Source of the DNA: Nevskia sp.
GTDB taxonomy: Bacteria > Pseudomonadota > Gammaproteobacteria > Nevskiales > Nevskiaceae
DNA: 64,000 nt
Assembly: GCA_031291075.1 (NCBI GenBank)
Contig: JARLJS010000006.1
Coordinates: 1 to 64,000 of the forward strand
Direction of reading: 5' to 3'
Shown: one piece after another, positions 29,263 through 43,745 of the stretch
Layout of the letters: each line of letters starts with the position of its first letter
How positions within the stretch are numbered: the first letter of the stretch is position 1
The notes under the pieces: generated by a model
The model's database searches: none
What the model saw: the letters and a program-made list of their open reading frames with translations, nothing else
Told to the model about the DNA's origin: nothing
Translations under genes and position numbers: made by a program

Positions 29263-29287
29263 CGGAGGCGCGTTACGTTCCGCGGAA

Positions 29288-30207: not shown

Positions 30208-30276
30208 GTAGGGCGGATCGCTCCGCGGGAGTGTGTCGGCTTTCGCGGAAGGCCGATTACGCTGCGCTAATCGGCC
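30208..30276. repeat. REP pair, one arm degenerate
   Basis: GTAGGGCGGATCGC at 30208 begins a truncated copy. The second (30251-30276, arms GGCCGATTA / TAATCGGCC) has both arms changed in a compensating way. Confidence 0.65.
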
Positions 30277-30677
30277 CTGCTATGACAGCTCCGCTCACTG
30301 TCACGTTCGGCCCAGGCCTGGCAGAGGTCGCGGGCGTGTTCGGCGAGGGCTTTTTCCTCGGCGGACATGGCGGCGTTGGCGAGCAGGGTGCGGTAGAGGC
30401 GGTGCAGGGCGGACTGGGCGGCACGGGTGCGCTGGTTGCGGGCGAGGCGCTGGTTCAAACGTTCGCCCTGGTAGCGGCTGCGCAGGTGGCGTTCGTCGGA
30501 TTCGGCCAGGAAGTCGCGGCCGACGGCGTCGAGAAAGTCGTCCTCGTAAGTGCGCAGGGCGTGCAGGGCCTGCTGGTGGATGCCGGCGGCGGCTTCGTCG
30601 TTGGCGGCCCTGGCGTGGGCGGCGGCGAGCAGCGTGCGGGCCTGGCAGGCGGGCGCCGTGGCGGCGGGACTGGGCAT
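30267..30677 (-). CDS. Unknown helical protein under phage-type operators
   Basis: 136 aa, almost entirely helical and charged (DDFLDAVGRDFLAESDERHL, LHRLYRTLLANAAMSAEEKA). No signal, TM segment or known domain is visible. AAAGGAAG precedes the ATG by 6 nt. Its promoter carries two copies of the 15-bp operator also found beside the phage-type repressor gene at 40022, with the same placement relative to the -35 and -10 boxes, so it is probably controlled by that repressor. The C-terminal 10 codons overlap a REP copy. Confidence 0.6.
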   Translation of the reverse strand: MPSPAATAPACQARTLLAAAHARAANDEAAAGIHQQALHALRTYEDDFLDAVGRDFLAESDERHLRSRYQGERLNQRLARNQRTRAAQSALHRLYRTLLANAAMSAEEKALAEHARDLCQAWAERDSERSCHSRAD

Positions 30678-30712: not shown

Positions 30713-30753
30713 AAGGTAAGTCGAGCTTACAAGTGATGTCAAGTAATACTTAC
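30713..30753 (-). promoter_or_regulatory. Promoter with two phage-repressor-type operators
   Basis: On the minus strand TTGACA (30737-30742) and TACCTT (30713-30718) are 18 bp apart, placing a start site about 28 nt before the ATG. Operator 1, GTAAGTCGAGCTTAC (30716-30730), is a perfect-arm dyad between the boxes. Operator 2, TCAAGTAATACTTAC (30739-30753), covers the -35 with one good arm. Their centres are 23 bp apart. Confidence 0.65.
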
Positions 30754-30779
30754 TCACTGGGGTAAGCGGGCCGACGGGT

Positions 30780-30844
30780 GGTTGCGGGCAGCAGGGCGGG
30801 CCATGCCCGCCGGCAGAGGATGGCGGGCGCGGCCCGCCCTGCGA
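30780..30844. repeat. GGGCGGGC hairpin repeat (family F)
   Basis: Stem GCAGGGCGGGCC / GGCCCGCCCTGC around a GCCGGCAGAGGATGGCGG centre. Related to the elements at 63525-63586 and 63690-63736. Confidence 0.6.
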
Positions 30845-30849
30845 CTACA

Positions 30850-30935
30850 CGTCATTCCCGCGCAGGCGAATCCGGTTTTCGATTTTGCATGGCGCTCAAA
30901 GCAAACCGGGTCCCCGCCTGCGCGGGGACGACGTT
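30850..30935. repeat. Interspersed family D element, long copy
   Basis: CGTCATTCCCGCGCAGGCG at the left and TCCCCGCCTGCGCGGGGACG at the right, giving an internal hairpin and an overall inverted layout. Confidence 0.6.
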
Positions 30936-30996
30936 GTCGGCTTTTGTTGGCGAACCTCTGGGACATAACACCAGGCACGACATTACGGCGCGTGGG

Positions 30997-31625
30997 TCAT
31001 GGGTGCTGCTGTTGCAGCATGGCCATCACGCCCAGTTCCTCCAGCTGCTGCACTTCGATCTGCGTGGCGAGGGTGCGCACGGCGGTGGTCCCGGCGTTGT
31101 GGGCGGCGAAGTGGGCCATGGGCAGGGCGCCCTGGTGGTGGCGGGTCATGAGTTGCAGGAACAGCCGGTCGCGCGGGTCGCCGTCGAGGCTGCGCAGGCG
31201 GTTGAGCTCGTCGTTGGTGGCGAGGCCGGGCATGCCGCCGGCGGCGCGGCAGTCGGCGAGGTAGCGGGTGAGGTGGCGTCGGGCGGGGTCTTGCCGAGGA
31301 GCATCCAGTCCTCGCCGGTGCCGGCGGGGAGCAGGGGTTTGTCCCACAGCAGCAGCCAGCCTTTCATCTCGCCGATCTCGACCAGCTGCGCGGCCTGGAT
31401 GCCGCGGGCGAGGCTGGCGAGGCGGGTGGTGCCGTGGTCGAGCAGGATCTGCGTCATCACCACGGCCTGGTCGTGGTGGCTGCGCATGGCCTGGGCAAAG
31501 CCGATGTCGACCGGGCCGGGCGCGGTGGCGGCCTGCGCCGTCGTGGCGGAGTGGCGCTGGCAGGCGGCACCCAGGGTGGCGCCGGCGAGCAGCAGGGCGC
31601 CGGCGGCGAGGCGGCGTGGGCTCAC
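30997..31625 (-). pseudogene. DUF305 protein gene with an internal frameshift near 31275
   Basis: A GTG at 31625 overlaps the stop of the LVIVD gene (GTGA). The first half encodes a lipoprotein-like signal (LLLAGATLGAACQRHS) and the first DUF305 histidine motif (FAQAMRSHHDQAVVMTQILL), up to LGKTPPDA. The second half (HLTRYLADCRAAGGMPGLAT, then LFLQLMTRHHQGALPMAHFA) is in a different frame. One missing base around 31270-31280 restores a protein of about 210 aa with both HH motifs. It may be a real mutation or a sequence error. DUF305 proteins are ferritin-like and may bind metal. Confidence 0.8.
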
Positions 31626-33217
31626 CGGATGGGGTAGACGCCGTTGGTGAACTGCAGGGCCATGAAGCCGTTGTCCATGCAGGTGACCCACAGCTGGTCG
31701 CCGACGAAGCGCGGCGGCGAGCTGCACCAGTCGGCGCTGAGGTTGCCGGAGACGGGGCCCTTGCCGGCACCGGCGAGCAGCGTGGGCAGGGCGGCGACGA
31801 AGTCGGCGAGGTAGCGGGCGTCGACCTTGGCGGTGCCGGCGTTGGGGCCGGAGGCGGAGCTGTTGAGGTCGGAGATGGTGGGCAGCAGGCCGCCGATCCA
31901 GGCGTGCAGGGAGTGCTGCAGGGCGAGGCCCTTGCCGGTTTGCGCGGGCGGGTTGTAGTAGGCGATCTCGCGCGGCTGCAGGGGGTTGCGCACGTCGAAC
32001 ACGCGGATGCCGGACTGGAAGTAGCCGCAGGCCAGCGCGGTGGGATCGGTGGGGGTGTCGACGGCGCAGTAGTGCGCTTCGTAGCCGAAGGCGCCGTCGC
32101 CGGCGGTATCGGCGGCACGGGTGGCGGCGTTCTGCGGCAGCTGGATCTGCAGCTGGATCTGCCGCGCCACCGTGGGCTCGGCGGGGTTGGAGATGTCGAC
32201 GATGTGGACGCCCTCGGAGTCGAACTCGTCCGCGGCGATGAGGTAGGGCTTGCCGTTCCAGGTGACGGGCAGGGCGTGCTGGCCGCAGCTCAAGGGGTTC
32301 CAGGTGACGGCGCCGATGTGGCGGATGGCGGGCGCGGGCTTGCGCGCCTGGATGTCGCTGACGTCGAGGATGAGCACGCCGCCGGGCAGGCAGGTGGCGA
32401 GGTAGAGGGTGTTGCCGTCGGCGCTGAGTTCCACGCCGTGGTTGGCGGGGAAGCCTTCCAGCCCGGTGTAGACGATGCGCGGCGACTTGGGATTGCTGAC
32501 GTCGATGGCGGTGATGGAGCCGGCGGCGGTGCCGGTGGCCCAGTAGGTCTTGCCGTCCGGCGACCAGTTGCCTTCGTGGCCGAGCACGTTGTCGGGCAGC
32601 TCCAGGGCGGTGCCGGCCAGGCCGTTGGAATGGACCGGGTGGGCGCAGTCGGAGATGTCGTACACGTCGAAGAAGCCGGCGCCGACCAGGCCGCCGACGG
32701 CGACGCCGCCGAGCAGCCGGCGCGGCTCGCTCACCTTGAGCGATTCCCAGGTGCCGATCAGCATGGAGGGGCCGGCGAGGCTGGTGGACAGCGCCGGCCG
32801 CGCGGGGTTGGAGGCGTCCACCACCAGCACTCCGGGCGCGGGCTCCAGTGCCTGCAGCGGATCCAGCAGGGTGCCGCTGGTGGACATGTAGGCGCAGGTG
32901 GCGGTGGAGGGGCTGACCACGCTGGCACCGGTGCCCTGGTACTGGCCGACCAGCGCGAGGTTGCAGTGGTAGCCCTGCAGGTTGCGGCCGCTCTTGCGAT
33001 CCGCCAGCGGCACCTGGCCTTGCAGGCCGGTCTCCGGCAGCGAGCCGGCTCCGCAGGCGGCGCCGGTGACGGCGGCGGCCTCGGCGGCGACGGATGGATC
33101 CGCCGGCGTGCCGCCGGTGCCGCTTGCACCGCAGGCGGCCAGCTCGCACAGGAGGGGGCCGGCCAGCGTGGCGAGCAGGCGGGGTGTGAATACGCGGGTT
33201 CCCTTGAGCGTGTGCAT
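31622..33217 (-). CDS. LVIVD-repeat beta-propeller lipoprotein
   Basis: 531 aa. Signal sequence with a possible lipobox (LCELAAC), then repeated propeller blades carrying the LVIVD-type strand: VLVVDASNPARPAL, FFDVYDISDCAHPV, ITAIDVSNPKSPRIV, VLILDVSDIQARKP, VHIVDISNPAEPTV and IRVFDVRNPLQPRE. Probably periplasmic or surface-exposed. Its stop overlaps the DUF305 start, so the two are one operon and possibly one complex. AAAGGGAA lies 6 nt before the ATG. Confidence 0.85.
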   Translation of the reverse strand: MHTLKGTRVFTPRLLATLAGPLLCELAACGASGTGGTPADPSVAAEAAAVTGAACGAGSLPETGLQGQVPLADRKSGRNLQGYHCNLALVGQYQGTGASVVSPSTATCAYMSTSGTLLDPLQALEPAPGVLVVDASNPARPALSTSLAGPSMLIGTWESLKVSEPRRLLGGVAVGGLVGAGFFDVYDISDCAHPVHSNGLAGTALELPDNVLGHEGNWSPDGKTYWATGTAAGSITAIDVSNPKSPRIVYTGLEGFPANHGVELSADGNTLYLATCLPGGVLILDVSDIQARKPAPAIRHIGAVTWNPLSCGQHALPVTWNGKPYLIAADEFDSEGVHIVDISNPAEPTVARQIQLQIQLPQNAATRAADTAGDGAFGYEAHYCAVDTPTDPTALACGYFQSGIRVFDVRNPLQPREIAYYNPPAQTGKGLALQHSLHAWIGGLLPTISDLNSSASGPNAGTAKVDARYLADFVAALPTLLAGAGKGPVSGNLSADWCSSPPRFVGDQLWVTCMDNGFMALQFTNGVYPIR

Positions 33218-33359
33218 GAAATTCCCTTTTCGGTGTACAGGCGCCTGGGGAATCTTAGCTCGATTGCGGGATCGGCGCGGACGGGGCCTGCCGTCTTGGG
33301 CCCGGCCGTCCTGCGGACTGATCGCGGGCGTTCAACCGCCGTCTTGACGGTGACCGGCC

Positions 33360-33405
33360 GCGCGTCCGCGTGGGCACGGCCTGCGGTCTTTGCCCACCTT
33401 ATGGG
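33360..33405. repeat. Family B repeat fragment
   Basis: GTCCGCGTGGGCACGGCCTG then CGGTCTTTGCCCACC, half of the larger element seen intact at 43115 and 44643. Confidence 0.6.
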
Positions 33406-33435
33406 TCTTTGCCCAGGGGGCTGCGCGGCTGTTTC

Positions 33436-34770
33436 TCAGTTGGCGTTGTACAGTTGGCCGTACAGGTTTTCGTTGTAGGTGCCGAGAATGTTCTGCGACC
33501 ACGTGTAGAGGATGACGCCCTGGTTGGCGGCAACGGAATTGCCAGAGTTGCTGTTGCCGCTGACCGGGAAGGGATCGCCCAGGGGCCAGCCCGCGGCATT
33601 GAATGCCTGCGACATCAATACGTTGCTTGGGCTGGCCCGCCACTCCATGATCAACGTGCCGTCCGCATCCAGCGCCGCAGCGTAGCTGAACGTTCTCAGC
33701 GAGTCGACGGCGCTGGAGGAAGCCAGGACAAAATGGCCGAAGGCGATGCCCAGCGGGGAGATGCTCTTCGAGTGAATCGACAGGTCCAGCGTCTGGGTCC
33801 CGAACTGGGGTACGAAGTCTTCGACCCAGGACGCGGTAATGCCTTGTGAGGTGTAGCGGAAAGGGCCCGAGGAAATACCGACACAACCGGCGAATCCACC
33901 CAGGGCGACGGATCCTATCTCGTAGACGCCGGTGCAGGATTGGATGTTGGCCGGCAGGCCGACCGGCTTGCCGTCCGCCGCTCCGAAGCGGCGGACGTTG
34001 GTGGAGAGGTTCAAGAGTTGAAACCCGCCCAGGGCAAGGCCGCTATCCACGTTCCAGCTCACCGCGAGTTCGCCGGTGGTGGGGTTCATGGCGGCCAGGC
34101 CCGACCGCACTGCCGCCGTGGTGAGGCCTTCGGGAACGGTCAGGTTGGCGACCGCGATCGGCGAGGGGTCCTTGGGCGCGCCGCTCGCCGAAAAGCGGAT
34201 GGCATCGACCGTGGAGGTGACGCTGGGGGCGCTGCTTGGTCCCGTGGACGAACTGAGGTCTCGAACCACCGCGAAATCGCCGGCGTCGTCCATGGCCAGG
34301 CTGTACCCGGTCGCGCTGACGCTGCAGGCGGCGTCCACGCAGAACTCGTCGCCCACCGGCGTGCCATTGGCCTGGAACAGCCGCAGCTTGATGGTTCCGA
34401 GATCACTGGTGGACGTCTGGACGTTCGTCATCCAGGCCAGGGCGAAATTGCCGTGGGCGTCGGTGACCACCTCCGGGGAGACTTCTGTGGTGGACGAGGT
34501 GTTGACGCGGATATCCTGGGTCAAGGGGCTGCCGTTGGCCGCGAAACGGCGGACGTAGAGGTTCGGGCTGGTGTCGCTGCCTTCTGGAGCGACCCAGGCG
34601 ACGACAAAACTGCCGTCCTTGGCCACGGTCGTGACGGTTGTGGAGTACAGGGAGGTGATGGCGGTCGCGTTGATGAGGAAGGCTTGTCCCGCCACCGGGA
34701 CCTTGTCCGCCATGGCGTTTGCAGCGGCGAGGGTGCCGAGCGAGAACAGCAGGCAAGCGGTCTTGTTCAT
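33436..34770 (-). CDS. Large secreted beta-repeat protein (paralogue of 53225-54619)
   Basis: 444 aa. Signal peptide MNKTACLLFSLGTLAAANAMA. The mature chain repeats a motif of about 60 residues: D-G-S-F-V-V-A-W, then NLYVRRFAANGSPL, HGNFALAWMTN, then IKLRLFQANGTPVGDEFC, DDAGDFAVVRDLSSST. This resembles propeller-like repeats that scan 'A-W...R-x-F-x-x-x-G'. Four Cys are present. It shares order and long identical segments with the protein at 53225-54619. No functional domain was recognised. Confidence 0.75.
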   Translation of the reverse strand: MNKTACLLFSLGTLAAANAMADKVPVAGQAFLINATAITSLYSTTVTTVAKDGSFVVAWVAPEGSDTSPNLYVRRFAANGSPLTQDIRVNTSSTTEVSPEVVTDAHGNFALAWMTNVQTSTSDLGTIKLRLFQANGTPVGDEFCVDAACSVSATGYSLAMDDAGDFAVVRDLSSSTGPSSAPSVTSTVDAIRFSASGAPKDPSPIAVANLTVPEGLTTAAVRSGLAAMNPTTGELAVSWNVDSGLALGGFQLLNLSTNVRRFGAADGKPVGLPANIQSCTGVYEIGSVALGGFAGCVGISSGPFRYTSQGITASWVEDFVPQFGTQTLDLSIHSKSISPLGIAFGHFVLASSSAVDSLRTFSYAAALDADGTLIMEWRASPSNVLMSQAFNAAGWPLGDPFPVSGNSNSGNSVAANQGVILYTWSQNILGTYNENLYGQLYNAN

Positions 34771-34922
34771 GGACGGGCGGTTCCTGGCGAGCCTGGATGA
34801 TAGCGCGGCGCATGCGGCGGACTGGTGTCGCGCAGGGGACATGACAGCCACGGCGTCACCCGAATGGTGGACGGTTCGGAAATGCTCGGGCTTTCCGCAG
34901 CAGTACGGCTCTCCACCCGTGC

Positions 34923-35156
34923 TCAGAGCGGTCCCGGCGGCTGGCGGCGCTTGACCACGATAGCGCCGAAGCAGGCGCCGGCGATGGCCAGCCAGACGAC
35001 GATGCCGAGCATGGTTTTGGTCACGTCCCCGGAGCAGTCCATGGAGGTGATGCGGTTGCAGACGAGTGCGCCGGTTTCGCCCGGCAGGGCGCGGAAGAAG
35101 GCGCGGATGGAGAGCAGCAGGTCGAGGAAGGGTTGCCAGGGTGCTTCGCTGTACAT
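34923..35156 (-). CDS. Small single-TM hypothetical protein
   Basis: 77 aa with an amphipathic N-terminal half and one TM helix (TMLGIVVWLAIAGACFGAIV) close to the C-terminus, ending KRRQPPGPL. Two Cys flank the turn (ALVCNRITSMDCSG). No family is known. A GCAGG motif precedes the ATG by 9 nt. The open frame continues upstream, so other starts are possible. Confidence 0.5.
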   Translation of the reverse strand: MYSEAPWQPFLDLLLSIRAFFRALPGETGALVCNRITSMDCSGDVTKTMLGIVVWLAIAGACFGAIVVKRRQPPGPL

Positions 35157-35408
35157 GGCCGGGTCCTGCCTGTCGGGGCGCTGGACGGGATGATATCGCG
35201 CGGCAGCGGGCGGAAACGGGGTGTGGGGCGGCGGGTGTCGCCCGAACGGGGGAGGCGGCGGCGTGGTGTCCCAGGCTGACAGCACATTGTCCGAAAATGA
35301 CAGGGCGGGGAAAGTGGCGGCAGGGCAGGATGCGGATGCCGGTGCGCCTGCCGCGAAGGCGTACTATCAACGGCGGCGCGACCGCCGCCGACCACACTGG
35401 AGCTGTGC

Positions 35409-36311
35409 ATGGAATTCCTGAGGACGCCTGACGAACGTTTCCACAATCTGCCGGGGTTTGCGTACCCGCCGCACTACGCGACGGTGGACGATACCGAGGG
35501 CGGCACGCTGCGCATGCATTACGTGGACGAGGGGCCGCGCGAGGCGCCGGTGGTGCTGATGCTGCACGGCGAGCCGTCGTGGAGCTTTCTCTATCGCAAG
35601 GTGATGGGGCCGGTGCTGGCGGCGGGCCACCGCGTGGTGGCGCCGGACCTGGTCGGCTTCGGCCGCTCGGACAAGCCGACGCGGCGCGCGGATTACACCT
35701 ACCAGCGGCACGTGGACTGGGTGCGTTCGCTGCTGCAGCAGCTGCGGCTGCGCGACATCACGCTGCTGTGCCAGGACTGGGGCGGGCTGATCGGGCTGCG
35801 GCTGGTGGGCGAGCACCCGGACTGGTTCGCGCGGGTGGTGGCGGCCAACACCATGCTGCCGACCGGCGACCACGATCCGGGCAAGGCCTTCCTGGCCTGG
35901 CAGAACTTTTCGCAGACCACGCCGGTGTTCGACGTGGGCAAGATCGTCAAGGGCGGCTGCGCCACGCCGATGTCGCCGGAGGTGATGGCGGCGTACGACG
36001 CGCCGTTCCCGGACGAGCGCTACAAGGAAGGCGCGCGGCAGTTCCCGCTGCTGGTGCCGGTGCGGCCGGACGACCCGGCCGCCGCGCCGAACCGCAAGGC
36101 CTGGGAGACGCTGCGGCAGTTCGACAAGCCCTTCCTCACCGCCTTCAGCGACAAGGACCCGATCACCGGCGCGGCGGCGCCGGTGCTGCGCAAATTGATC
36201 CCGGGCTGCAAGGACCAGCCGCACGTGACCATCGAGAACGGCGGGCACTTTTTGCAGGAGGACCAGGGGGAGCGGTTGGGGGAGGTGGTGGTGGGGTTTG
36301 TGGGGCGGTGA
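35409..36311 (+). CDS. dhmA: Haloalkane dehalogenase, subfamily HLD-I
   Basis: 300 aa, alpha/beta hydrolase that cleaves carbon-halogen bonds to alcohol and halide. Oxyanion motif HGEPSW (residues 53-58); nucleophile D123 with halide-binding W124 (CQDWGG); second halide-binding W164 in the cap (AFLAWQNF); acid D250 (SDKDP); base H280 (GGHFLQED). This arrangement is that of DhlA/DhmA-type enzymes. No halo-acid dehalogenase or alcohol dehydrogenase gene is adjacent. A REP copy lies directly downstream. Confidence 0.9.
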   Translation: MEFLRTPDERFHNLPGFAYPPHYATVDDTEGGTLRMHYVDEGPREAPVVLMLHGEPSWSFLYRKVMGPVLAAGHRVVAPDLVGFGRSDKPTRRADYTYQRHVDWVRSLLQQLRLRDITLLCQDWGGLIGLRLVGEHPDWFARVVAANTMLPTGDHDPGKAFLAWQNFSQTTPVFDVGKIVKGGCATPMSPEVMAAYDAPFPDERYKEGARQFPLLVPVRPDDPAAAPNRKAWETLRQFDKPFLTAFSDKDPITGAAAPVLRKLIPGCKDQPHVTIENGGHFLQEDQGERLGEVVVGFVGR

Positions 36312-36345
36312 GGGGGACGGCTGGCTGTGGCGGAGTTGCGCGGAA

Positions 36346-36377
36346 GGCGGATTACGCTCCTGCGGAGCTAATCCGCC
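36346..36377 (-). repeat. REP palindrome, long form, in a 72-bp repeat
   Basis: Embedded in a longer stretch (about 36315-36386) that is almost identical to 38647-38722, starting GACGGCTGGCTGTGGCGGAG. The pair looks like a recent duplication. Confidence 0.75.
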
Positions 36378-36410
36378 CTACGGGCTGATGGAAAGAGGAT
36401 CATATTGGGA

Positions 36411-36776
36411 ATGAAAGAAAGCATTGACGAAGTTGTAAGAGCGGCGGCGGCGCTACCCCTTTACGATGCTGCTTACAAACTCTGGACATCCAGGCGCGAA
36501 TACTTGAAGTTGGGGGGGGCGGCAATACCAGGCGGGAAGATATTTGAAATTCTTCAAGCGGCGCATCCCGAGGTTTCGGACGCCGCCCTTAAGGCGGCAA
36601 TTCAAAGCGCAGCCGATTTCGAAATTGCTTGCACCAGCAGTTTCAAGTACACAGATGGTGGCAATCTCGGCCGAGACGCCGATTGGGCGATCGCGCTTGC
36701 AAGGGTGACGTATCCTCAATTTCAGGAGAATACGTATCGGCTTGCTTCGTTTGCGCTGGCCTTGGCTATGCGTTAG
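36411..36776 (+). CDS. Hypothetical protein between REP elements
   Basis: 121 aa, helical, soluble (MKESIDEVVRAAAALPLYDA, then AAIQSAADFEIACTSSFKYT). No family is recognised. It is bounded by REP copies at 36346 and 36782 and is less G+C-rich than flanking genes, so it may have been acquired. GGGA sits just before the ATG; a TTG at 36405 is in frame. Confidence 0.5.
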   Translation: MKESIDEVVRAAAALPLYDAAYKLWTSRREYLKLGGAAIPGGKIFEILQAAHPEVSDAALKAAIQSAADFEIACTSSFKYTDGGNLGRDADWAIALARVTYPQFQENTYRLASFALALAMR

Positions 36777-36781
36777 TACAT

Positions 36782-36812
36782 GTAGGGCGGATTAGCGCCA
36801 GCGTAATCCGCC
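36782..36812 (+). repeat. REP palindrome, short form, left flank of the RAYT gene
   Basis: GTAG then a 27-bp palindrome with arms GGCGGATTA / TAATCCGCC. It is in inverse orientation to the copy at 37392-37423 on the other side of the transposase. Confidence 0.8.
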
Positions 36813-36828
36813 TTCCGCGTGCCCAACG

Positions 36829-37356
36829 TCACTCGTAGTCGAGCGTTCTGATCGCGGGCGCGGCGCCCCAATCGAGGGGCAGCAGGCCATCGGCGACAAA
36901 GCGGTGGAAGCTGGAATGCTGCCAGTCGGCGGCGCGCCGGGCGTATCCGTGTTTGACCGGGTTGAAATGGATGTAGTCCACGTGCGCGGCATGGTCGGCC
37001 TCGTCGCGGATGGTGTGTTCCCAGAAGCGCCGTTGCCAGATGGCGCGCTCGCCCTTTGCGGCGCGCGTGGTCGACAGCCGTTCCACGGCGGGCAGGCTCT
37101 TGGCGAAGCGGGTCTTGATCAGGCGCCAGCGTGTCGGGAAATCGGGGTCGTCCGGCGGCAGGGTCCAGATGCAGTGCAGGTGATCCGGCAGCACGACGAT
37201 GGCGTCGATGCGGAACGGCCGCGTGGCGCGCACCGCGCGAAACGCTTCCCGCAGATCCTCGATGCGCTCGACCAGCAGGCCGCGCCGGCGCTCCAGCAGG
37301 GCGGCGGTGAAGAAGAAGGTTCCGCCGGGGACGTGGCTGCGGATGTAGTGGGGCAT
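36829..37356 (-). CDS. REP-associated tyrosine transposase (RAYT)
   Basis: 175 aa. A Y1 HUH-type single-strand transposase: N-terminal PHYIRSHVPGGTFFFTAALL, metal motif H-L-H in VVLPDHLHCIW, a conserved REP-recognition segment (WQRRFWEHTIRDEADHAAHV), and the Tyr-containing VDYIHFNPVKHGYARRAADW. RAYTs bind and move short GTAG-prefixed palindromes. Here the gene lies between two inverted copies of just such a palindrome, the classical REPtron layout. The start at 37356 matches the family N-terminus. Confidence 0.92.
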   Translation of the reverse strand: MPHYIRSHVPGGTFFFTAALLERRRGLLVERIEDLREAFRAVRATRPFRIDAIVVLPDHLHCIWTLPPDDPDFPTRWRLIKTRFAKSLPAVERLSTTRAAKGERAIWQRRFWEHTIRDEADHAAHVDYIHFNPVKHGYARRAADWQHSSFHRFVADGLLPLDWGAAPAIRTLDYE

Positions 37357-37391
37357 CGCGGCAGTTTGCCGGCGGTGGCGCCTGCGCGGAA

Positions 37392-37423
37392 GGCGGATTA
37401 CGCTCCTGCGGAGCTAATCCGCC
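37392..37423 (-). repeat. REP palindrome, long form, right flank of the RAYT gene
   Basis: 32-bp palindrome 36 bp upstream of the RAYT start. It is followed by GTACG, a variant of the usual CTACG (GTAC instead of GTAG on the minus strand). Confidence 0.8.
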
Positions 37424-37445
37424 GTACGTGCTACGTGCTGGGAGC

Positions 37446-38408
37446 TCATTCGCCGCTCAGGCAACCCTTCTGGCCGTCTTTGTTGGGATAACCGGTGCCG
37501 GAGTTGTAAGCCCGGTTGGACCATTCGCCCTGGACTTTCCACTGCGAGCCATTGGTGAAGGTGACCAGCGGGACGTCGAAGGTGTGGGCGCACAGGTCGC
37601 CCACTTCCTTGCCGGAGGTGTTGTTGTACCAGCCGTCGCCGTGATAGGGGTCGGTGCGGGCTTCCGACAGTTCGTGGGCGGAGGAGTTGCCCAGGTCGGA
37701 CAGGCCCGGGGAATGCAGTCCGGAGGTGTCGTGGTTGGAGCAGCCGTCGTCGCCGTCCGGGTCGAAGAAGTAGCTGAAGGTCACTTCCGTGCCGCCGCAG
37801 GTGCCGCTGGCGTGCCAGGCGCAATAGCCCGCGTTGCCGCGCTTGTAGTCGGTATAGACGGGGTAGTAGCCGACGCGCTTGCTATGGGTGGGGGGATTGA
37901 TGTGCTCGCCGGCGATGACCTTGCAGACTTCGGCCAGGATGGCTTTGCCGTTGTCGCCGCTTATGGATGCGCTGCCGTCGATGTAGTGGGTGCCATAGGC
38001 GACGGTGGCGCTGACGGCGCCGTTGGTGCCGGTGTACTCGGTGACGGTCTTCGCGTAGTTGGAGCCGCCGAAGCCTTCGTAGTAGGTGTCGATTCCGCTG
38101 AACTTGTCGCCTTTGTAGCCCGGCCAGGATTTGCCCCAGAAGATGGCGTCGACGCGGGTCGAGATCAGGATCGGGCCGCCGTGGTAGTCGACGTTCGGAC
38201 TGGCGCCGGCGGCGTTCGGCAGCTTGGCATGGATCGCGGCCCGCAACTCGTCGCCTTGCCGATCGTTCGAATAGACGTAGCCGTGCGGGTCGGAGGTGAG
38301 CTGCGCCCAGCCCCTGGGCAGCCCCACGTCCTCGCTTTCGTCGGCAAGGGCCGGGAGCGCGGCGGCCGCAGAGATGCCTGCCAATAGGGCGAGTGCAAGG
38401 TTGTTCAT
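37446..38408 (-). CDS. EXORDIUM/phosphate-induced-like secreted protein
   Basis: 320 aa. Signal peptide (ALALLAGISAAAALPALA). The mature part has VDYHGGPILISTRVDAIFWG, TVTEYTGTNG and SSAHELSEARTDPYHGDGWY, a pattern like bacterial homologues of plant EXORDIUM (PHI-1) proteins, in which a 'HE-x-x-EA-x-TDP' segment is conserved. His and Glu there suggest metal binding; catalysis is unproven. Six or so Cys in the second half may pair. GGAGGAGG lies 5 nt before the ATG. Confidence 0.7.
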   Translation of the reverse strand: MNNLALALLAGISAAAALPALADESEDVGLPRGWAQLTSDPHGYVYSNDRQGDELRAAIHAKLPNAAGASPNVDYHGGPILISTRVDAIFWGKSWPGYKGDKFSGIDTYYEGFGGSNYAKTVTEYTGTNGAVSATVAYGTHYIDGSASISGDNGKAILAEVCKVIAGEHINPPTHSKRVGYYPVYTDYKRGNAGYCAWHASGTCGGTEVTFSYFFDPDGDDGCSNHDTSGLHSPGLSDLGNSSAHELSEARTDPYHGDGWYNNTSGKEVGDLCAHTFDVPLVTFTNGSQWKVQGEWSNRAYNSGTGYPNKDGQKGCLSGE

Positions 38409-38549
38409 GCTGCCTCCTCCGGAAACTTGTTGATGGAATATTTGATTCGTTCCGCCGAGCATACGGGGGTCCGCCGGGGAGTTTCGTTGGCGGCTGCGCC
38501 ACCATCGCGATGTCACGATGCACACTGTGTGTTGCGTCACAGTCAGCGC

Positions 38550-38604
38550 GCTCGGGTGTCAATGGGGGATCTGGTTCAAATGCGGCCGCTGGTCAGGCCG
38601 ACGG
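38550..38604 (+). repeat. Direct repeat, copy 1
   Basis: GTCAATGGGGGATCTGGTTC and the following CTGGTCAGGCCGACG match copy 2 with a 3-bp indel and several substitutions. Confidence 0.65.
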
Positions 38605-38679
38605 GACTACATGACCTCATGAGCTGGTTTGTGCGGAAGGGGTGAGGCGGACGGCTGGCTGTGGCGGAGTTGCGCGGAA

Positions 38680-38711
38680 GGCGGATTACGCTCCTGCGGA
38701 GCTAATCCGCC
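38680..38711 (-). repeat. REP palindrome, long form, between direct repeats
   Basis: Part of the 72-bp segment shared with 36315-36386. The direct repeats at 38550 and 38731 bracket it. Confidence 0.75.
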
Positions 38712-38730
38712 CTACGGGCTTTGCGTCGCT

Positions 38731-38788
38731 GCTCGGACGTCAATGGGGGATCCGGTTCAAATTCGTCCATCGCTGGTCAGACCGACGC
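38731..38788 (+). repeat. Direct repeat, copy 2 (overlaps the end of brnA)
   Basis: GTCAATGGGGGATCCGGTTC then CGCTGGTCAGACCGACGC. The last 12 bp include the brnA stop codon, so copy 1 is probably a displaced fragment of this region. Confidence 0.65.
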
Positions 38789-39028
38789 ATCCCTGAACGC
38801 CCTCAATACTGCATTGATGCGCGTTTGGTAGCCGGGACCCTGCTGCTTGAACCACTCGAGGACGTCCTGGTCGACCCGCAATGAGACGGAGGCCTTGGGC
38901 GGCACCGGCTGGAGCCCGCGGCGCACGACGCCGCGGACGATGTGGCGAATGCTTGCCTCCGGGTGTTCCGCGGTGGGTGCGGCCGATGTTGCGCTCTTGA
39001 GACGGGACCAGTCAGTCCTGGATTTCAT
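38777..39028 (-). CDS. brnA: BrnA-family antitoxin
   Basis: 83 aa from the chosen start (MKSRTDWSRLKSATSAAPTA). The C-terminal ribbon-helix-helix segment is typical of BrnA: SVSLRVDQDVLEWFKQQGPG, YQTRINAVLRAF. BrnA neutralises the BrnT RNase-like toxin and represses the operon. The ATG at 39028 overlaps the brnT stop by 17 bp; an upstream Met at 39088 would overlap brnT by 77 bp and add a Ser/Lys-rich leader not typical of the family. Confidence 0.88.
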   Translation of the reverse strand: MKSRTDWSRLKSATSAAPTAEHPEASIRHIVRGVVRRGLQPVPPKASVSLRVDQDVLEWFKQQGPGYQTRINAVLRAFRDASV

Positions 39029-39287
39029 GGAAGTAGATTTCGGCTTCGCGCTTCGTGGCTTGGCGGAATGAGATGATGCGGATTTCATGCGCGCTCTCCG
39101 TATGGACTATTGAAACAGGTATGCCTGCGAGCAGGCCGAGGGTGACAAAGCGTTGCTCGCCGTAGGAGAAGCGGTCATCTTCGAATGTGAATGTCGCCCC
39201 TGCAAAGACCGCTGGCGCATCAACGAAATCGAGCCGGTGCTGCTTCAGGTTGAGCGCACGTTTCCGGCTCGACCAGGTGAACTCCGT
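39012..39287 (-). CDS. brnT: BrnT-family toxin with non-canonical ACG start
   Basis: 91 aa reading EFTWSSRKRALNLKQHRLDF after the first codon, then VDAPAVFAGATFTFEDDRFS, YGEQRFVTLGLLAGIPVSIV, HTESAHEIRIISFRQATKRE and AEIYFHEIQD. This is a complete BrnT ribonuclease-like toxin. The frame is intact from 39287 to the stop at 39012, but the position where Met is expected reads ACG, and no ATG, GTG or TTG exists in frame between the nearest upstream stop region and the conserved core. Translation would need ACG initiation, or the toxin is silenced by a T-to-C change. Confidence 0.8.
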   Translation of the reverse strand, partial: TEFTWSSRKRALNLKQHRLDFVDAPAVFAGATFTFEDDRFSYGEQRFVTLGLLAGIPVSIVHTESAHEIRIISFRQATKREAEIYFHEIQD

Positions 39288-39293
39288 GCACGG

Positions 39294-39307
39294 ACTGTAT
39301 ATACAGT
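39294..39307. promoter_or_regulatory. Perfect palindrome upstream of brnTA
   Basis: ACTGTATATACAGT, 7 bp before the brnT start. It is the likely operator or core promoter for BrnA autorepression. Spacing between CTGT and ACAG is 4 bp, too short for a LexA box. Confidence 0.5.
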
Positions 39308-39480
39308 ATGTAGATGCGTCAAGAATGCTTTACCCGCTCCGCGCAGGCACCGCGTGGGCACGCTTGTGAATGTCGTCCGAGGATACGAGTCCTGGGGGTA
39401 GGAGCCAAGCGTGCGCATCGCACATCCCGGCGATGAAGGAGAAGGAGTCGCGGAAACGTGGCGGCGGCGCCTGCGCGGAA

Positions 39481-39512
39481 GGCGGACTACGCTCCTGCGG
39501 AGCTAATCCGCC
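39481..39512 (-). repeat. REP palindrome, long form
   Basis: One mismatch in the left arm (GGCGGACTA). Lies 30 bp beyond the stop of the small lipoprotein gene. Confidence 0.7.
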
Positions 39513-39541
39513 CTACGGGTTATGGGGTACGGGTTATGGGC

Positions 39542-39760
39542 TCAGCGGCAAACGGATGCGGCGTGTTCTCGCATGTGGATGCATTGCTCCGTCGTCACGA
39601 AGGCGGAGCGCGGTACTGGTACTCCCCCTTTGAAGCAATATTCGTCCTGGGTGGCTATCGCCTCTTTGCACATAGCCAAGGACTGATCGTCCGCCGGCAG
39701 CGATGAGCAGCCCGCGCTTACACAAAGCAGAATGAGCGAGAGGATGCGATAAGCGGACAT
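39542..39760 (-). CDS. Small lipoprotein
   Basis: 72 aa. MSAYRILSLILLCVSAGCSS is a lipoprotein signal (Cys near 18). The mature 55 residues have four further Cys (AMCKEA, EYCFKGG, EQCIHM, ASVCR) and no known domain. The ATG at 39760 best frames the signal; two more Met lie just upstream. Nothing ties it to brnTA or to the phage cassette. Confidence 0.55.
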   Translation of the reverse strand: MSAYRILSLILLCVSAGCSSLPADDQSLAMCKEAIATQDEYCFKGGVPVPRSAFVTTEQCIHMREHAASVCR

Positions 39761-39839
39761 GCGAGGCATGCTCGCCTGGGCGGTCAGGCATGTCAACTTC
39801 AAACCGGGGCACTAGAGCATTTTCTCTTTACGTGCACAC

Positions 39840-39968
39840 ATCTTCCCCTCTCCCGCGTGCGGGAGAGGGTGGCCCGCAGGGCCGGGAGAGGGGCTTTGCG
39901 TCCGGCCAAAAGCCCCTCTCCCCTACCCCTCTCCCCTACCCCTCTCCCGCAAGCGGGAGAGGGGGAAC
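39840..39968. repeat. Family C array (CCCTCTCCC / GGGAGAGGG)
   Basis: Three to four hairpin units, for example TCTCCCGCGTGCGGGAGAGG and CTCCCGCAAGCGGGAGAGG, with CCCCTACCCCTCTCC tandem pieces between. Related copies occur at 51588, 52320, 58654, 60236 and 63472. Confidence 0.7.
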
Positions 39969-40021
39969 AAACATGTATGCATCTGAACTAAAGACGCCCT
40001 AGCGCATGCGGGAATGACGGC

Positions 40022-40759
40022 CTACAACCCGCCGCGCCCGCTCTTGTCGCGCACGCGGCCGATGATGGTGATCTGGTCGGCGACCTGGTCGGCCGGGACG
40101 GTGTCGTCGGGGTAGTCGTCGCGGTTGATGCTGCGCAGGACGAGGGAGCCGTCGGCCTTGGGGATGAGTTTTTTCACCTTGAGCTGGTCGCCGTGGCGGA
40201 AGACGTAGACCTGGCCTTCGCGGACGGAGGTCTCTTCCAGGTTCACCAGGATGGAGTCGCCGGGGAAGAGCAGGGGTTCCATGCTGTTGCCGGTGACGCG
40301 GAAGCGCTTGGCCTTCTTGGGGTTGATGCGTTCCTTCTGGAACCAGGACAGGCGGTACGTCGCCGGCTCGCTGTCGCTGATGGCTTCGTAGCTGACGGCG
40401 TACTGGCCGTTGCCGCCGCTGAAGCGGACGCGGTCCTCGGGGATGCGGATCTCGTCGTCGCGGGCGGGGTCGTCGGGGTGGAAGCCGCGCACGAGCGGTG
40501 AGCTCCAGTCGGTGCCGGCGTCGATGTCGTCGTTGGTGAGGTAGTCCTCGAAGGGGGCGCCGGTCTTTTTGGCGATCTGCTTGAGCTGGTCGATGGAGGG
40601 GCGGGTGCGCTTCTCCGGCCGCGGGCTTTCCCACTGGGAGACGGCTTCGCGGGTGATGCCGAACAGGTTGGCGATGTCCTGCTGGGTGAGCTGGGCGCGG
40701 GTGCGGGCCTCGCGCAGGCGCTGCCAGAGTTCGGACTTCTTTTTGGGGGTTTTGTTCAT
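40022..40759 (-). CDS. Phage CI/LexA-type repressor (XRE + S24 peptidase)
   Basis: 245 aa. An XRE HTH (residues 20-45: QLTQQDIANLFGITREAVSQ) is joined by a linker to an S24/LexA peptidase domain: catalytic Ser159 (TGNSMEPLLFPGDSILVN) and Lys in QLKVKKL (194-197). Ala81-Gly82 in the linker (DIDAGTDW) fits the RecA-assisted self-cleavage site of LexA and lambda CI, so induction by DNA damage is plausible. No Shine-Dalgarno precedes the ATG, so the mRNA may be leaderless, as for lambda cI from PRM. It is divergent from the replication gene at 40875, with three operators between. Confidence 0.9.
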   Translation of the reverse strand: MNKTPKKKSELWQRLREARTRAQLTQQDIANLFGITREAVSQWESPRPEKRTRPSIDQLKQIAKKTGAPFEDYLTNDDIDAGTDWSSPLVRGFHPDDPARDDEIRIPEDRVRFSGGNGQYAVSYEAISDSEPATYRLSWFQKERINPKKAKRFRVTGNSMEPLLFPGDSILVNLEETSVREGQVYVFRHGDQLKVKKLIPKADGSLVLRSINRDDYPDDTVPADQVADQITIIGRVRDKSGRGGL

Positions 40760-40770
40760 GGCTTGACTAT

Positions 40771-40834
40771 GTAAGACGACCTTACGTCTGTCCAGTAAGT
40801 CAAGCTTGACCAATATGTAAGCAGCACTTACCAT
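40771..40834 (+). promoter_or_regulatory. Three-operator switch region of the phage-type repressor
   Basis: Three 15-bp dyads of form GTAAG-N5-CTTAC: GTAAGACGACCTTAC (40771-40785), GTAAGTCAAGCTTGA (40795-40809, right arm imperfect) and GTAAGCAGCACTTAC (40817-40831). Centres are 24 and 22 bp apart, as in lambda-like right operators. A rightward promoter TTGACC (40806-40811), 17 bp, TACCAT (40829-40834) has the third operator between its boxes. The palindrome GTCAAGCTTGAC (40799-40810) gives TTGAC on both strands, so -35 boxes may overlap back to back. Confidence 0.75.
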
Positions 40835-40874
40835 GCTTCCGCATGACCAAGGCGGAACGTAAGGACTGAAGACC

Positions 40875-41726
40875 ATGGATTTCTACAAGCGTTATCCGGC
40901 GGACTACGGCAAGAAGACGCGGCACCTGTCGCTGCAGGAGCACGGGGCGTATGCGCTGCTGCTGGACTGGGCGTACGCGAGCGAGCTGCCGCTGCCGGAG
41001 AGTTTCGAGGCGGTGTGCCGCATCTGCAGCGCGACGACGCGGGACGACCGCAAGGTGGTGGAGTCGGTGCTGGGGCAGTTCTGGGTGAAGGGGGCGCAGG
41101 GGTGGACGCACAAGCGGGTGGTGGAGGAGATCGCCAAGGCGGACGTCAACCGCACCAACGGCATCCGCGGCGGCAGGCCAGGGATGTTCGGCGCGCGTGT
41201 TCCACGCGAAACAAAACCGGACGGGAACCCGGGCGATAACCCAAACCCGAACCGAAACGAAACCCAGAACGGAACCCAAACCCAAACCGAACCGCCAACC
41301 GGAACCGAACCCAGAACCGAACCGAACGAGGGACATACTCAGACTCTCAGACTCTCAGACTTGAAAGAACAGCGGCAAGGTGGATCGCCTGGCGGCGAAC
41401 CACCCCCGTCCGCACCGGCGGAACCGATTCCGTTCGAGCGCATCGTGGAGATCTACAACGCGACGATGACGCGGTTGCCGAAGGTGCTGGTGCTGAATGC
41501 CAGGCGGCGTCGCATCATCCAGGCTTTTTGGCAGACGGATGCGCGTTACCGCAGCCTGGAGTTCGTGCGGCAGTACTTCGAGGAATGCGAGGAGGATGCG
41601 TTTCTCAACGGCACCGGTCCCTACGGCAGCGGGCATGCGACCTGGCAGCCGGATTTCGATTACCTGCTGCGCGCCGATGTGGTGACGCGCGTCTACGAGA
41701 AGGCGATGAGCGGGGGGCGGCCGTGA
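40875..41726 (+). CDS. DUF1376 phage replication protein
   Basis: 283 aa. The N-terminal DUF1376 (YdaU-type) domain MDFYKRYPADYGKKTRHLSL, then EHGAYALLLDWAYASELPLP, is followed by a low-complexity linker (about residues 115-155) of Asn/Pro/Thr/Glu/Gln repeats and a C-terminal helical domain (RLPKVLVLNARRRRIIQAFW). In phages such proteins act like lambda O or helicase loaders. Its TGA overlaps the helicase GTG by 4 bp, so the two are coupled. Expression should be blocked by the repressor at the upstream operators. Confidence 0.85.
   Translation: MDFYKRYPADYGKKTRHLSLQEHGAYALLLDWAYASELPLPESFEAVCRICSATTRDDRKVVESVLGQFWVKGAQGWTHKRVVEEIAKADVNRTNGIRGGRPGMFGARVPRETKPDGNPGDNPNPNRNETQNGTQTQTEPPTGTEPRTEPNEGHTQTLRLSDLKEQRQGGSPGGEPPPSAPAEPIPFERIVEIYNATMTRLPKVLVLNARRRRIIQAFWQTDARYRSLEFVRQYFEECEEDAFLNGTGPYGSGHATWQPDFDYLLRADVVTRVYEKAMSGGRP
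41237..41328 (+). repeat. Imperfect hexamer repeat coding the linker
   Basis: Repeats of ACCCAA/ACCGAA units, about 15 in 92 bp, all in frame with the DUF1376 gene. Copy-number changes in multiples of three or six would alter linker length without a frameshift. Confidence 0.65.
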
Positions 41727-43114
41727 GCGCGCGGGAGATGCGTCATCCGCCGCACTCGATGGAGGCGGAGCAGTCGGTGCTGGGCGGGCTGATGCTGGAC
41801 AACCGGCGCTATGACGAGGTGGCGGAGCGGCTGTCGGCGGATGACTTTTTCGTGCCGGATCACCGGGTGATTTTCGGCGGCATCGCGGAGCTGTTCGGCG
41901 CCGGCAAGCCGGCGGATTTCGTGACGCTGTCGGAGCACCTGCGGCAGCGCGATCGGCTGGAGGAGGCGGGCGGGCTGGCGTACGTGGGGACGCTGGCGGC
42001 GGACTGTCCCAGCGCGGCGAACGTGAAGGCTTACGCGGAGATCGTGCGGGAGCGGGCGGTGCTGCGCGGGCTGATCGCGGCGGGGCAGCAGATCGCGGAG
42101 CTGGGCTACCGGCCGGACGGGCGCGAGGGCATGGCGCTGCTGGACGCGGCGGAGCGGGAGCTGTCGCGGCTGCGCCGGCGCAGCGCGTCGCGCGACGGCA
42201 ACGAGTCGGCCTACGGCGCGCTGATGGAGGAGGTGGAGCGCGAGCTGGAGGCGGCGGCGCGCGGCGAGGGATCGCGCGGGCTGCCCACCGGCTTTGCGGA
42301 GTTCGACCGCATGACGGACGGGCTGCACGCGGGCGACCTGGTGGTGATCGCGGGACGGCCGGGGATGGGCAAGACCAGTTTCGCCATGGCCATCGTCGAG
42401 CACGTGGGGGTGCAGCTGCGCCAGCCGGTGACGGTGTTCAGCCTGGAGATGCAGCGGCGCCAGCTGATGCAGCGGCAGGTGGCCAGCTACGCGGGCGTGC
42501 CGCTGGCGGCGCTGCGCGGCGGGCGGCTGGACGATCACGCCTGGAGCCGGGTGGTGGCGGCGGGCGGGGCGCTGCGGGCGGCGCCGATCGTGGTGGACGA
42601 CACCGGCGCGCTGAGCCCGCTGGAGCTGCGCGCGCGGGCGCGGCGGGCGCTGGCGCAGCGCGGGCTGAAGCTGCTGGTGGTGGACTACCTGCAGCTGATG
42701 CAGGTGCCGGGCTGCCGCGACGGGCGCGCGGCGGAGATCGCGGAGATCTCGCGCGGGTTGAAGGCGCTGGGCAAGGAGCTGGGGGTGCCGGTGATCGCGC
42801 TGTCGCAGCTGTCGCGCGCGGTGGAGCTGCGCCCGGACAAGCGGCCGCTGATGGCGGACCTGCGCGAGTCCGGCGGCATCGAGCAGGACGCGGACGTGAT
42901 CGCCTTCGTCTACCGCGACGAGTACTACCACGCCGGGTCGGCCGATCGCGGGGTGGCGGAGATCGTCATCGGCAAGCAGCGCAGCGGGCCCTGCGGCACG
43001 GTGCGGGTGGCGTTCGACGGCGCGCTGACGCGCTTCGACAACCTGCCGGCGGGCGATGCGCGGGAGGCGGCGCGGCCGGCGAAGCGGCGCGGGTTTCGGG
43101 CAGTGCGTCCGTAG
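41723..43114 (+). CDS. Phage-type replicative DNA helicase (DnaB family)
   Basis: 463 aa. The N-terminal DnaB domain (MEAEQSVLGGLMLDNRRYDE, then DFFVPDHRVIFGGIAEL) is followed by a RecA-like motor: Walker A in IAGRPGMGKTSFAM, H1a FSLEMQRRQLMQR, Walker B LLVVDYLQLMQVPG, H3 VPVIALSQLSRAVELR, arginine-finger region GKQRSGPCGTVRV. GTG start, coupled to the DUF1376 gene. This is probably not the chromosomal dnaB, because it lies in a phage-like operon. It would be recruited by the DUF1376 protein. Confidence 0.9.
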   Translation: MSAREMRHPPHSMEAEQSVLGGLMLDNRRYDEVAERLSADDFFVPDHRVIFGGIAELFGAGKPADFVTLSEHLRQRDRLEEAGGLAYVGTLAADCPSAANVKAYAEIVRERAVLRGLIAAGQQIAELGYRPDGREGMALLDAAERELSRLRRRSASRDGNESAYGALMEEVERELEAAARGEGSRGLPTGFAEFDRMTDGLHAGDLVVIAGRPGMGKTSFAMAIVEHVGVQLRQPVTVFSLEMQRRQLMQRQVASYAGVPLAALRGGRLDDHAWSRVVAAGGALRAAPIVVDDTGALSPLELRARARRALAQRGLKLLVVDYLQLMQVPGCRDGRAAEIAEISRGLKALGKELGVPVIALSQLSRAVELRPDKRPLMADLRESGGIEQDADVIAFVYRDEYYHAGSADRGVAEIVIGKQRSGPCGTVRVAFDGALTRFDNLPAGDAREAARPAKRRGFRAVRP

Positions 43115-43230: not shown

Positions 43231-43307
43231 GGGAATACGGGTAACGGGTGACGGGTTTTGACTGGAACTTTCATTTCGGCGGCGAGGGCCGCCACGGGAG
43301 GATTTGC

Positions 43308-43745
43308 ATGAAGCGGCAAATGACGATCGAGCAGCGCCTGCGCGAATACGCCGCCTGGCTGCGCCATCCGCGGCTGGAGATCGGCTGCGGTTCGATCTTC
43401 GGCAGGATCCAGGACGAGCAGATGAACGCCGGCGCCGGCGGCGACGAGACGCGGCCGGACATCGTGGACGGCGTGAGCTGCCGACCGGACGGCGGCCTGA
43501 GCCGGCTGGCGGAGCAGATGAGCCGCGACCTGCGGCGCGACATGTGCTGCCGCGACATCCACGCGCTGGTGCAGCATCTGCCGGAGCATCACCGCCGCAC
43601 CCTGGCGGCGATCTACGACAGCAGCGAGCCGCGCAGCGTACGCGCGGCGGCGGAGGCGCTGGGTGTGAGCCGAGGCCAGTATTGCGAGCGCAAGGCGGCG
43701 CTGATGGCGTGGTTCGAGGGGGCGATGTGGCGGGAGGCGGCGTGA
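43308..43745 (+). CDS. Phage Q-like/sigma-region-4-like regulator
   Basis: 145 aa. The C-terminal half (HLPEHHRRTLAAIYDSSEPR, SVRAAAEALGVSRGQYCERK) is an HTH with the shape of phage late antiterminator Q or ArpU-like proteins. The first half has Cys residues (EIGCGSIFG, DMCCRDIH) that could bind zinc. GGGAGGA precedes the ATG by 7 nt. It closes the phage-like cassette. The neighbour upstream is the helicase, separated by a family B repeat. Confidence 0.6.
   Translation: MKRQMTIEQRLREYAAWLRHPRLEIGCGSIFGRIQDEQMNAGAGGDETRPDIVDGVSCRPDGGLSRLAEQMSRDLRRDMCCRDIHALVQHLPEHHRRTLAAIYDSSEPRSVRAAAEALGVSRGQYCERKAALMAWFEGAMWREAA

Follow-up and report, generated by a model that had tools for sequence, protein, structure and literature searches.

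Phage lambda CI with its operators oL and oR is among the closest known systems to the locus described here. We report here the analysis of a 64,000-nucleotide stretch of DNA from Nevskia sp. (GenBank assembly GCA_031291075.1, contig JARLJS010000006.1, positions 1 to 64,000; hereafter, the window), in which sites of the type GTAAG-N5-CTTAC lie between a gene for a CI-type repressor and a replication operon and, 10 kb away, ahead of a gene for an uncharacterised protein of 136 amino acids (aa). Sequence comparisons make it very probable that these five sites are the oR (three sites) and the oL (two sites) of one lambda-type immunity switch derived from a temperate phage. As in lambda, the repressor carries a helix-turn-helix (HTH) and an S24 domain, a three-site oR lies between cI and the right early promoter, and a second operator set is found at the left early promoter; the left promoter and cI both point leftward and the right promoter rightward. 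Unlike in lambda, oL and oR are 10 kb apart with ordinary genes between them, oL holds two sites, the operator sequence is a different one, there is no cro frame, and no virion or integration genes were found nearby. The locus is thus best filed as a split, partial lambda-type switch.

The nearest described case that we found is DicA with dicBp, in the cryptic prophage Qin of E. coli K-12, which the available part of the source presents as a prophage-remnant repressor that silences the pL-like promoter of a small effector operon (PMC10448788). By that account DicA does not have the usual Ala-Gly bond, which is not at the corresponding place in the window repressor either; DicA is a short repressor of 135 aa, and dicAC lies immediately upstream of dicBF (PMC10448788). 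The repressor of the window, in contrast, is of the S24 type and has 245 aa, and the target is 10 kb away, or on another contig in relatives. A prophage repressor has also been reported to affect host gene expression in the case of Pf4r, from the filamentous phage Pf4, although the available part of that account, unlike the window, makes no mention of a lambda-type oL/oR pair (PMC8402870). A literature search over titles and the beginnings of abstracts, among the matches listed, gave nothing on this operator, on the 136-aa family or on a Nevskia prophage switch. What is new is that oL and oR are separated, that repressor and target stay matched over several specificities, and that the target family is uncharacterised.

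Putative operator sites in the window and in phages

An initial annotation had placed three dyads beside the replication operon and two in front of the 136-aa gene, and all five were recovered at the same coordinates (Table 1). Three of them (30716, 40771 and 40817) are exact copies of GTAAG-N5-CTTAC and are the only ones in the whole window, with none in 100 dinucleotide shuffles; the annotation had noticed no further match by eye. The other two, GTAAGTCAAGCTTGA at 40795 (plus strand) and GTAAGTATTACTTGA at 30739 (minus-strand reading), are half-degenerate and have in common a CTTGA variant half that overlaps the TTGAC of the -35 box. The promoter layout that had been proposed for both places, TTGAC followed after 5-6 bp by an operator, agrees with our measurements, since the -35 hexamer is separated from the second dyad by 6 bp at oL (TTGACA) and by 5 bp at oR (TTGACC). 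At oR, the three sites follow each other at spacings of 24 and 22 between the repressor gene and the divergent replication operon, and the oL pair is on the minus strand, pointing away from oR.

Because the dyads overlap the -35 and the presumed -10 boxes, bound repressor would block polymerase at both promoters. At oR the repressor would shut the DUF1376/DnaB operon and control its own gene, and at oL it would shut the 136-aa gene; loss or inactivation of the repressor would be expected to open the two promoters together. The left arm is now separated from oR by 10 kb of DNA that carries ordinary genes. The sites, their exclusivity, their phage counterparts and their matching across genomes are established in silico, and it is from these that we infer binding, repression and joint release.

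The decisive probe, and a better one than the plain dyad, was a composite that joins the variant dyad, TTGAC and the exact dyad (GTAAGN5CTTGAC-N2-9-GTAAGN5CTTAC). Among 58 genomes of the family it matches twice, at the two promoters of the window, 10,041 bp apart, and among 369 genomes of the class it matches at the same two places only; both sets include the window's own genome, and the reversed control gave no match in either. The exact dyad by itself occurs four times in the window's genome (5.65 Mb), where about 1.5 copies are expected from base composition, and twelve sites differ from it by one mismatch. The fourth exact copy (C217:36509) falls within a predicted coding frame and was rejected as an operator.

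Scanning a viral collection with the composite gave 15 stretches, corresponding to 18 composites on 12 contigs. Two composites are present on six of the 12, and in all six they are divergent, 519 to 2020 bp apart, with a repressor-profile match between them; within the DNA examined, 9 of the 12 contigs have a repressor match. Four of the six two-copy contigs have one more exact dyad towards the repressor, which completes a triplet whose spacing is nearly that of the window. Contig L048 (IMGVR_UViG_3300013767_000215, the same contig as L091) encodes a repressor 62% identical to that of the window over residues 8-245 and carries the same 3 + 2 sites, with the same operators and spacing, its divergent oL and oR being 1.8 kb apart. 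It is because the viral composites are divergent, with the repressor between them, that we read the window sites as the three-site oR and two-site oL of a lambda-type switch. As a compact signature, the dyad-TTGAC-dyad composite also allows oL and oR of a phage group to be recognised from sequence.

The gene behind oL of L048 encodes a 126-aa protein, and other composite-bearing phages have different genes at this place. By eye, the early-left regions of L044 (10464-18278) and L048 (17409-20718) contain repeated variable-lectin-like (DUF1566-like) frames, and that of L048 also a reverse-transcriptase-like frame; these are possibly part of a diversity-generating retroelement controlled by this switch.

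Matching of repressor and target across genomes

Homologues of the 136-aa gene were found in five of the 58 family genomes, the window's included. All five are Nevskia, G026 having been placed in the genus by genome search, and all five also have a repressor homologue, which is present in 14 of the 58 (hypergeometric 4.4e-4) and in 7 of the 18 Nevskia genomes (2.5e-3), both probabilities being calculated over related, non-independent genomes. The co-occurrence check suggested in the initial annotation thus gave a repressor homologue in every genome with the gene.

Target and repressor promoters resemble each other in all five Nevskia genomes and in both viral contigs compared, over five operator specificities. 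The window and L048 have GTAAG-N5-CTTAC, G022 and G012 have ACAAC-N4-GTTGT, and the viral contig G058 has ATTAGTC-N-GACTAAT; a TGTWAA-N6-TTWACA-like specificity, loosely, in G014 and an AACTA-type one in G026 were read from few sites. When the promoters of the seven were compared all against all (7 x 7), the true pairing scored 129, and 2 of 5040 permutations were as good. The change of specificity can be followed in the repressors of the window and G026, which are identical at 127 of 156 positions in the C-terminal part and at 21 of 65 in the HTH part, and whose operators differ at both places.

The two promoters hold four of the five ACAAC-N4-GTTGT matches in the whole of G022 (5.9 Mb) and four of the six in G012 (4.0 Mb), for which the reversed control gave 0 and 2 matches, respectively; in these operators the half-sites are kept and the spacers differ. 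Two of the three further matches were inspected and fall within predicted frames, and G012:C240:17789 was left out. In G014 a single contig carries both target and repressor, at a distance of about 3 kb that includes a glycosylase gene. In G026, G022 and G012 the repressor is on another contig than the oL-136 unit and the 136-aa gene lies among host-type genes, and here too the operators match. In G022 and G012 alike, the gene is in one block with those for VF530 and KdpD, which makes inheritance in place probable. Taken from sequence, these observations strongly support a single repressor that would act on two promoters through common operators, and they favour the earlier suggestion that the 136-aa gene is probably its second target.

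In two scans of the viral collection a single contig, G058 (IMGVR_UViG_3300047160_035978), had a gene of the 136 family. This 64.7-kb phage contig, with tail-like genes judged by eye, encodes a 117-aa homologue ahead of ERF and YqaJ recombination genes, and has ATTAGTC-type operators at the target promoter and between the repressor and a small HTH gene (5 matches versus 0.05 expected), with oL and oR about 4.1 kb apart and a repressor C-part that is 58-59% related. It is like the window in having a 136-family gene behind oL-type operators, and unlike it in the operator sequence. A profile search of the order found the family in 6 of 85 genomes, the sixth weakly (G055, E 8.6e-6) and among genes that by eye resemble phage early genes; no homologue was found in named phages and plasmids. 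In view of the contexts in G058 and G055, early-left operons of temperate phages are the most likely home of the family, which is not obligatory there.

The 136-aa protein gave no match in Pfam, PHROG or NCBIfam and no solved relative by sequence search; Pfam at E up to 1 with six family members returned just four scattered weak matches, and PADLOC with four members a single one (E 0.028, in one member). AlphaFold2 predicts an all-helical protein (mean pLDDT 81.2, pTM 0.66; other models down to 59), for which Foldseek found no convincing structural relative (best E 2.0 in PDB and 1.6 in the viral set), and the best VIA match (Z 5.1, 9.9 A rmsd over 94 residues) is at a level common for helical bundles. 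From its position in the early-left operon, a tentative guess would be a protein for host takeover or an inhibitor, of the kind of Kil or DicB.

The window repressor matches HTH_19, HTH_3 and Peptidase_S24 of Pfam above cut-off as well as the transcriptional repressor family phrog_4 (E 1.4e-39); it has no match to solved structures at 0.001, and the 180 named-phage records with relatives at E 1e-10 are all below 60% identity. Ser159 and Lys196 are invariant in eight repressors. Where the repressors of G014, G022 and G012 have SAG, those of the window, L048 and G026 have SGG and that of G058 has AGG; since the Ala-Gly bond is not at this place here, the RecA route assumed by a mitomycin C test is uncertain. 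G014 and G022 also have in common an S24-type repressor gene that lies near a formamidopyrimidine-DNA-glycosylase-like gene (67% and 75% identity; L030 8238-10442; L034 4975-8223) and looks like a resident chromosomal repressor.

Surroundings of the probable switch

Table 1. Putative operators, promoter elements and genes of the probable switch, with positions in the window
Feature	Position	Strand	Evidence
136-aa gene, all-helical protein, early-left position	30267..30677	-	homologues in 4 other family genomes; 117-aa phage homologue
oL site 2, exact GTAAG-N5-CTTAC, overlaps presumed -10	30716..30730	-	motif scan, shuffles
Presumed -35 box TTGACA of 136-aa gene	30737..30742	-	read from sequence
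oL site 1, GTAAGTATTACTTGA, overlaps -35	30739..30753	-	motif scan; same variant at oL of viral contigs
CI-type repressor, 245 aa, HTH plus S24 domain	40022..40759	-	Pfam, PHROG repressor families, 62% identity to L048 repressor
oR site adjoining repressor gene, exact dyad	40771..40785		motif scan, shuffles
oR middle site, GTAAGTCAAGCTTGA, overlaps -35	40795..40809	+	motif scan
Presumed -35 box TTGACC of replication operon	40806..40811	+	read from sequence
oR site adjoining replication operon, exact dyad, overlaps presumed -10	40817..40831	+	motif scan, shuffles
DUF1376 / O-like replication gene	40875..41726	+	Pfam DUF1376 E 7.2e-21; PHROG replication families
DnaB-like helicase (open frame; homology from near 41726)	41528..43114	+	Pfam DnaB_C E 1.2e-95
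Late regulator (Q-like by position), tentative	43248..43745	+	weak PHROG regulator matches E 0.023, 0.082

The frame tentatively assigned to a late regulator has a 53% identical homologue in the G026 module, and a GGDEF/EAL protein is encoded to the right of the module in the window. The gap between oL and cI contains matches to DUF305, LVIVD, an alpha/beta hydrolase, an IS200-like transposase (just under Pfam's cut-off) and, at 38777-39088, a BrnA-type antitoxin (Pfam E 1.2e-19). Genes of the LVIVD/DUF305 type lie upstream of oL-136 in the window (30997-33217), directly downstream of the 136-aa gene in G026 (L031 3888-6094) and apart from it in G022 (L061 5273-7584), with a gene order as if cyclically permuted. 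No PHROG match to integrase, packaging or virion functions was found in 24 selected window frames outside the module (29 scanned). Outside the window, contig C215 carries at about 74-77 kb (L039 11978-14842) a GH19 endolysin-like gene (Pfam E 1.4e-7), which together with neighbouring holin- and spanin-like small frames (by eye) could form a phage lysis cassette; it is over 30 kb away from the switch.

Searching the window for a dispersed repeat of the CTTTCGCGGAAGGC type, with up to two mismatches allowed, gave 12 matches, versus 1.0 expected. Copies around GCGGAAGGC, often followed by GC-rich hairpins, lie at 29277, 30240, 36335, 37381, 38669, 39470, 43761 and 50659, several of them in the oL-cI gap and two (30240 and 43761) just outside the ends of the region. 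The longest direct repeat flanking the region, of 14 bp, is at these two positions; as it is part of the dispersed repeat with its 12 near matches, we do not take it for an attachment site. That the repeat helped rearrangements could be envisaged, but is only an idea.

Alternative readings and meaning of the circuit

Several results weigh against assigning the five sites to one lambda-type switch. Allowing up to two mismatches, we saw no enrichment of the plain dyad in the window (8 sites versus 6.65 +/- 2.46 expected), so the scan at this threshold that the initial annotation had proposed would be uninformative. In the 7 x 7 matrix, the true pairing of the window target, and also that of the G022 target, scores lower than the pairing with the repressor promoter from the other member of the specificity group, and the weakest resemblances between target and repressor promoters are those of G014, with its looser layout, and of G026, with its few-site motif. 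For G022, which has three repressor matches, C612 was chosen because its promoter resembled the target (it scored 22 versus 7 for the alternative C460; the comparison covered these two, the third match being a partial frame at the end of a contig). In the DNA examined, all 12 viral contigs with the composite lack a 136-family gene, which is hence not a fixed part of the switch. Between oR and the replication gene there is no frame for cro, the DUF1376 gene being the only plus-strand frame of at least 30 codons that starts at 40832-40900; with cro not found behind oR, the window is a partial member of the lambda type. G026 and G022 have in this position a YdaS-type gene (by eye), with a phrog_35 repressor match for that of G022.

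The lack of enrichment of the plain dyad, together with a genome in 302 contigs, would agree with chance similarity or an assembly chimera. We consider this highly improbable, since the composite occurs at two places only in the 58 and 369 genomes and recurs on viral contigs in the expected arrangement, and since the 136 + LVIVD neighbourhood is found again in G026, an independent assembly. The absence of a fixed gene behind oL, as illustrated by the 126-aa protein of L048, bears on another possibility, namely that the 136-aa gene is recent cargo that happens to stand behind oL, under regulation that is real but incidental; since matching operators precede genes of the family in five Nevskia genomes and on phage contig G058, this appears improbable.

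The remaining alternatives concern what has kept the two promoters together. To plain prophage decay by deletions, insertions and repeat recombination, after which oL and the 136-aa gene would persist by inertia with no selected role apart from the phage, we give slightly less than even weight. The dN/dS of 0.84 between the 136-aa genes of the window and G026 shows little sign of constraint, no DUF1376 or DnaB match was found in the first 14 kb of the G012 repressor contig, and the CTTTCGCGGAAGGC-type repeats, in excess in the window, reach just outside both region ends, all of which fits decay. It is less easily reconciled with G022 and G012, which keep the gene in their common VF530/KdpD block with a dN/dS of 0.35 and with half-sites kept though spacers differ, or with the five homologues, all open frames without stops; the dN/dS values are crude counts in GC-rich DNA and no proof of selection. 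A domesticated circuit, in which repressor and 136-aa gene are kept as a host regulon, for instance because loss of the repressor releases a harmful protein, would account for the presence of the repressor in all five gene-bearing genomes (4.4e-4, for related genomes), for operators that match across specificities, and for the two promoters holding most operator matches in G022 and G012. It seems somewhat unlikely to us, as the genomes are few and all fragmented, MAG-like assemblies (metagenome-assembled genomes) with contigs up to 82 kb, and as the window and G026 still have replication genes. We also regard as unlikely, if worth stating, a dispersed host circuit made by Nevskia species from the lambda-type switch, with only two promoters, one for the repressor and one for the 136-aa gene. 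In such a circuit the HTH part and both operator sets would have been swapped together more than once without breaking it, since a mismatch would release a harmful or costly 136-aa protein; the repressor would then be antitoxin-like at the level of transcription.

Read as one lambda-type switch whose two arms lie apart, the locus and its relatives give five Nevskia genomes with several operator sequences, which form a natural specificity-swap series where a target 3 kb or more away is still matched. This series makes it testable whether early-left phage genes hold a repressor in place after loss of the phage, and the uncharacterised 136-aa protein family gains a clear regulatory context.

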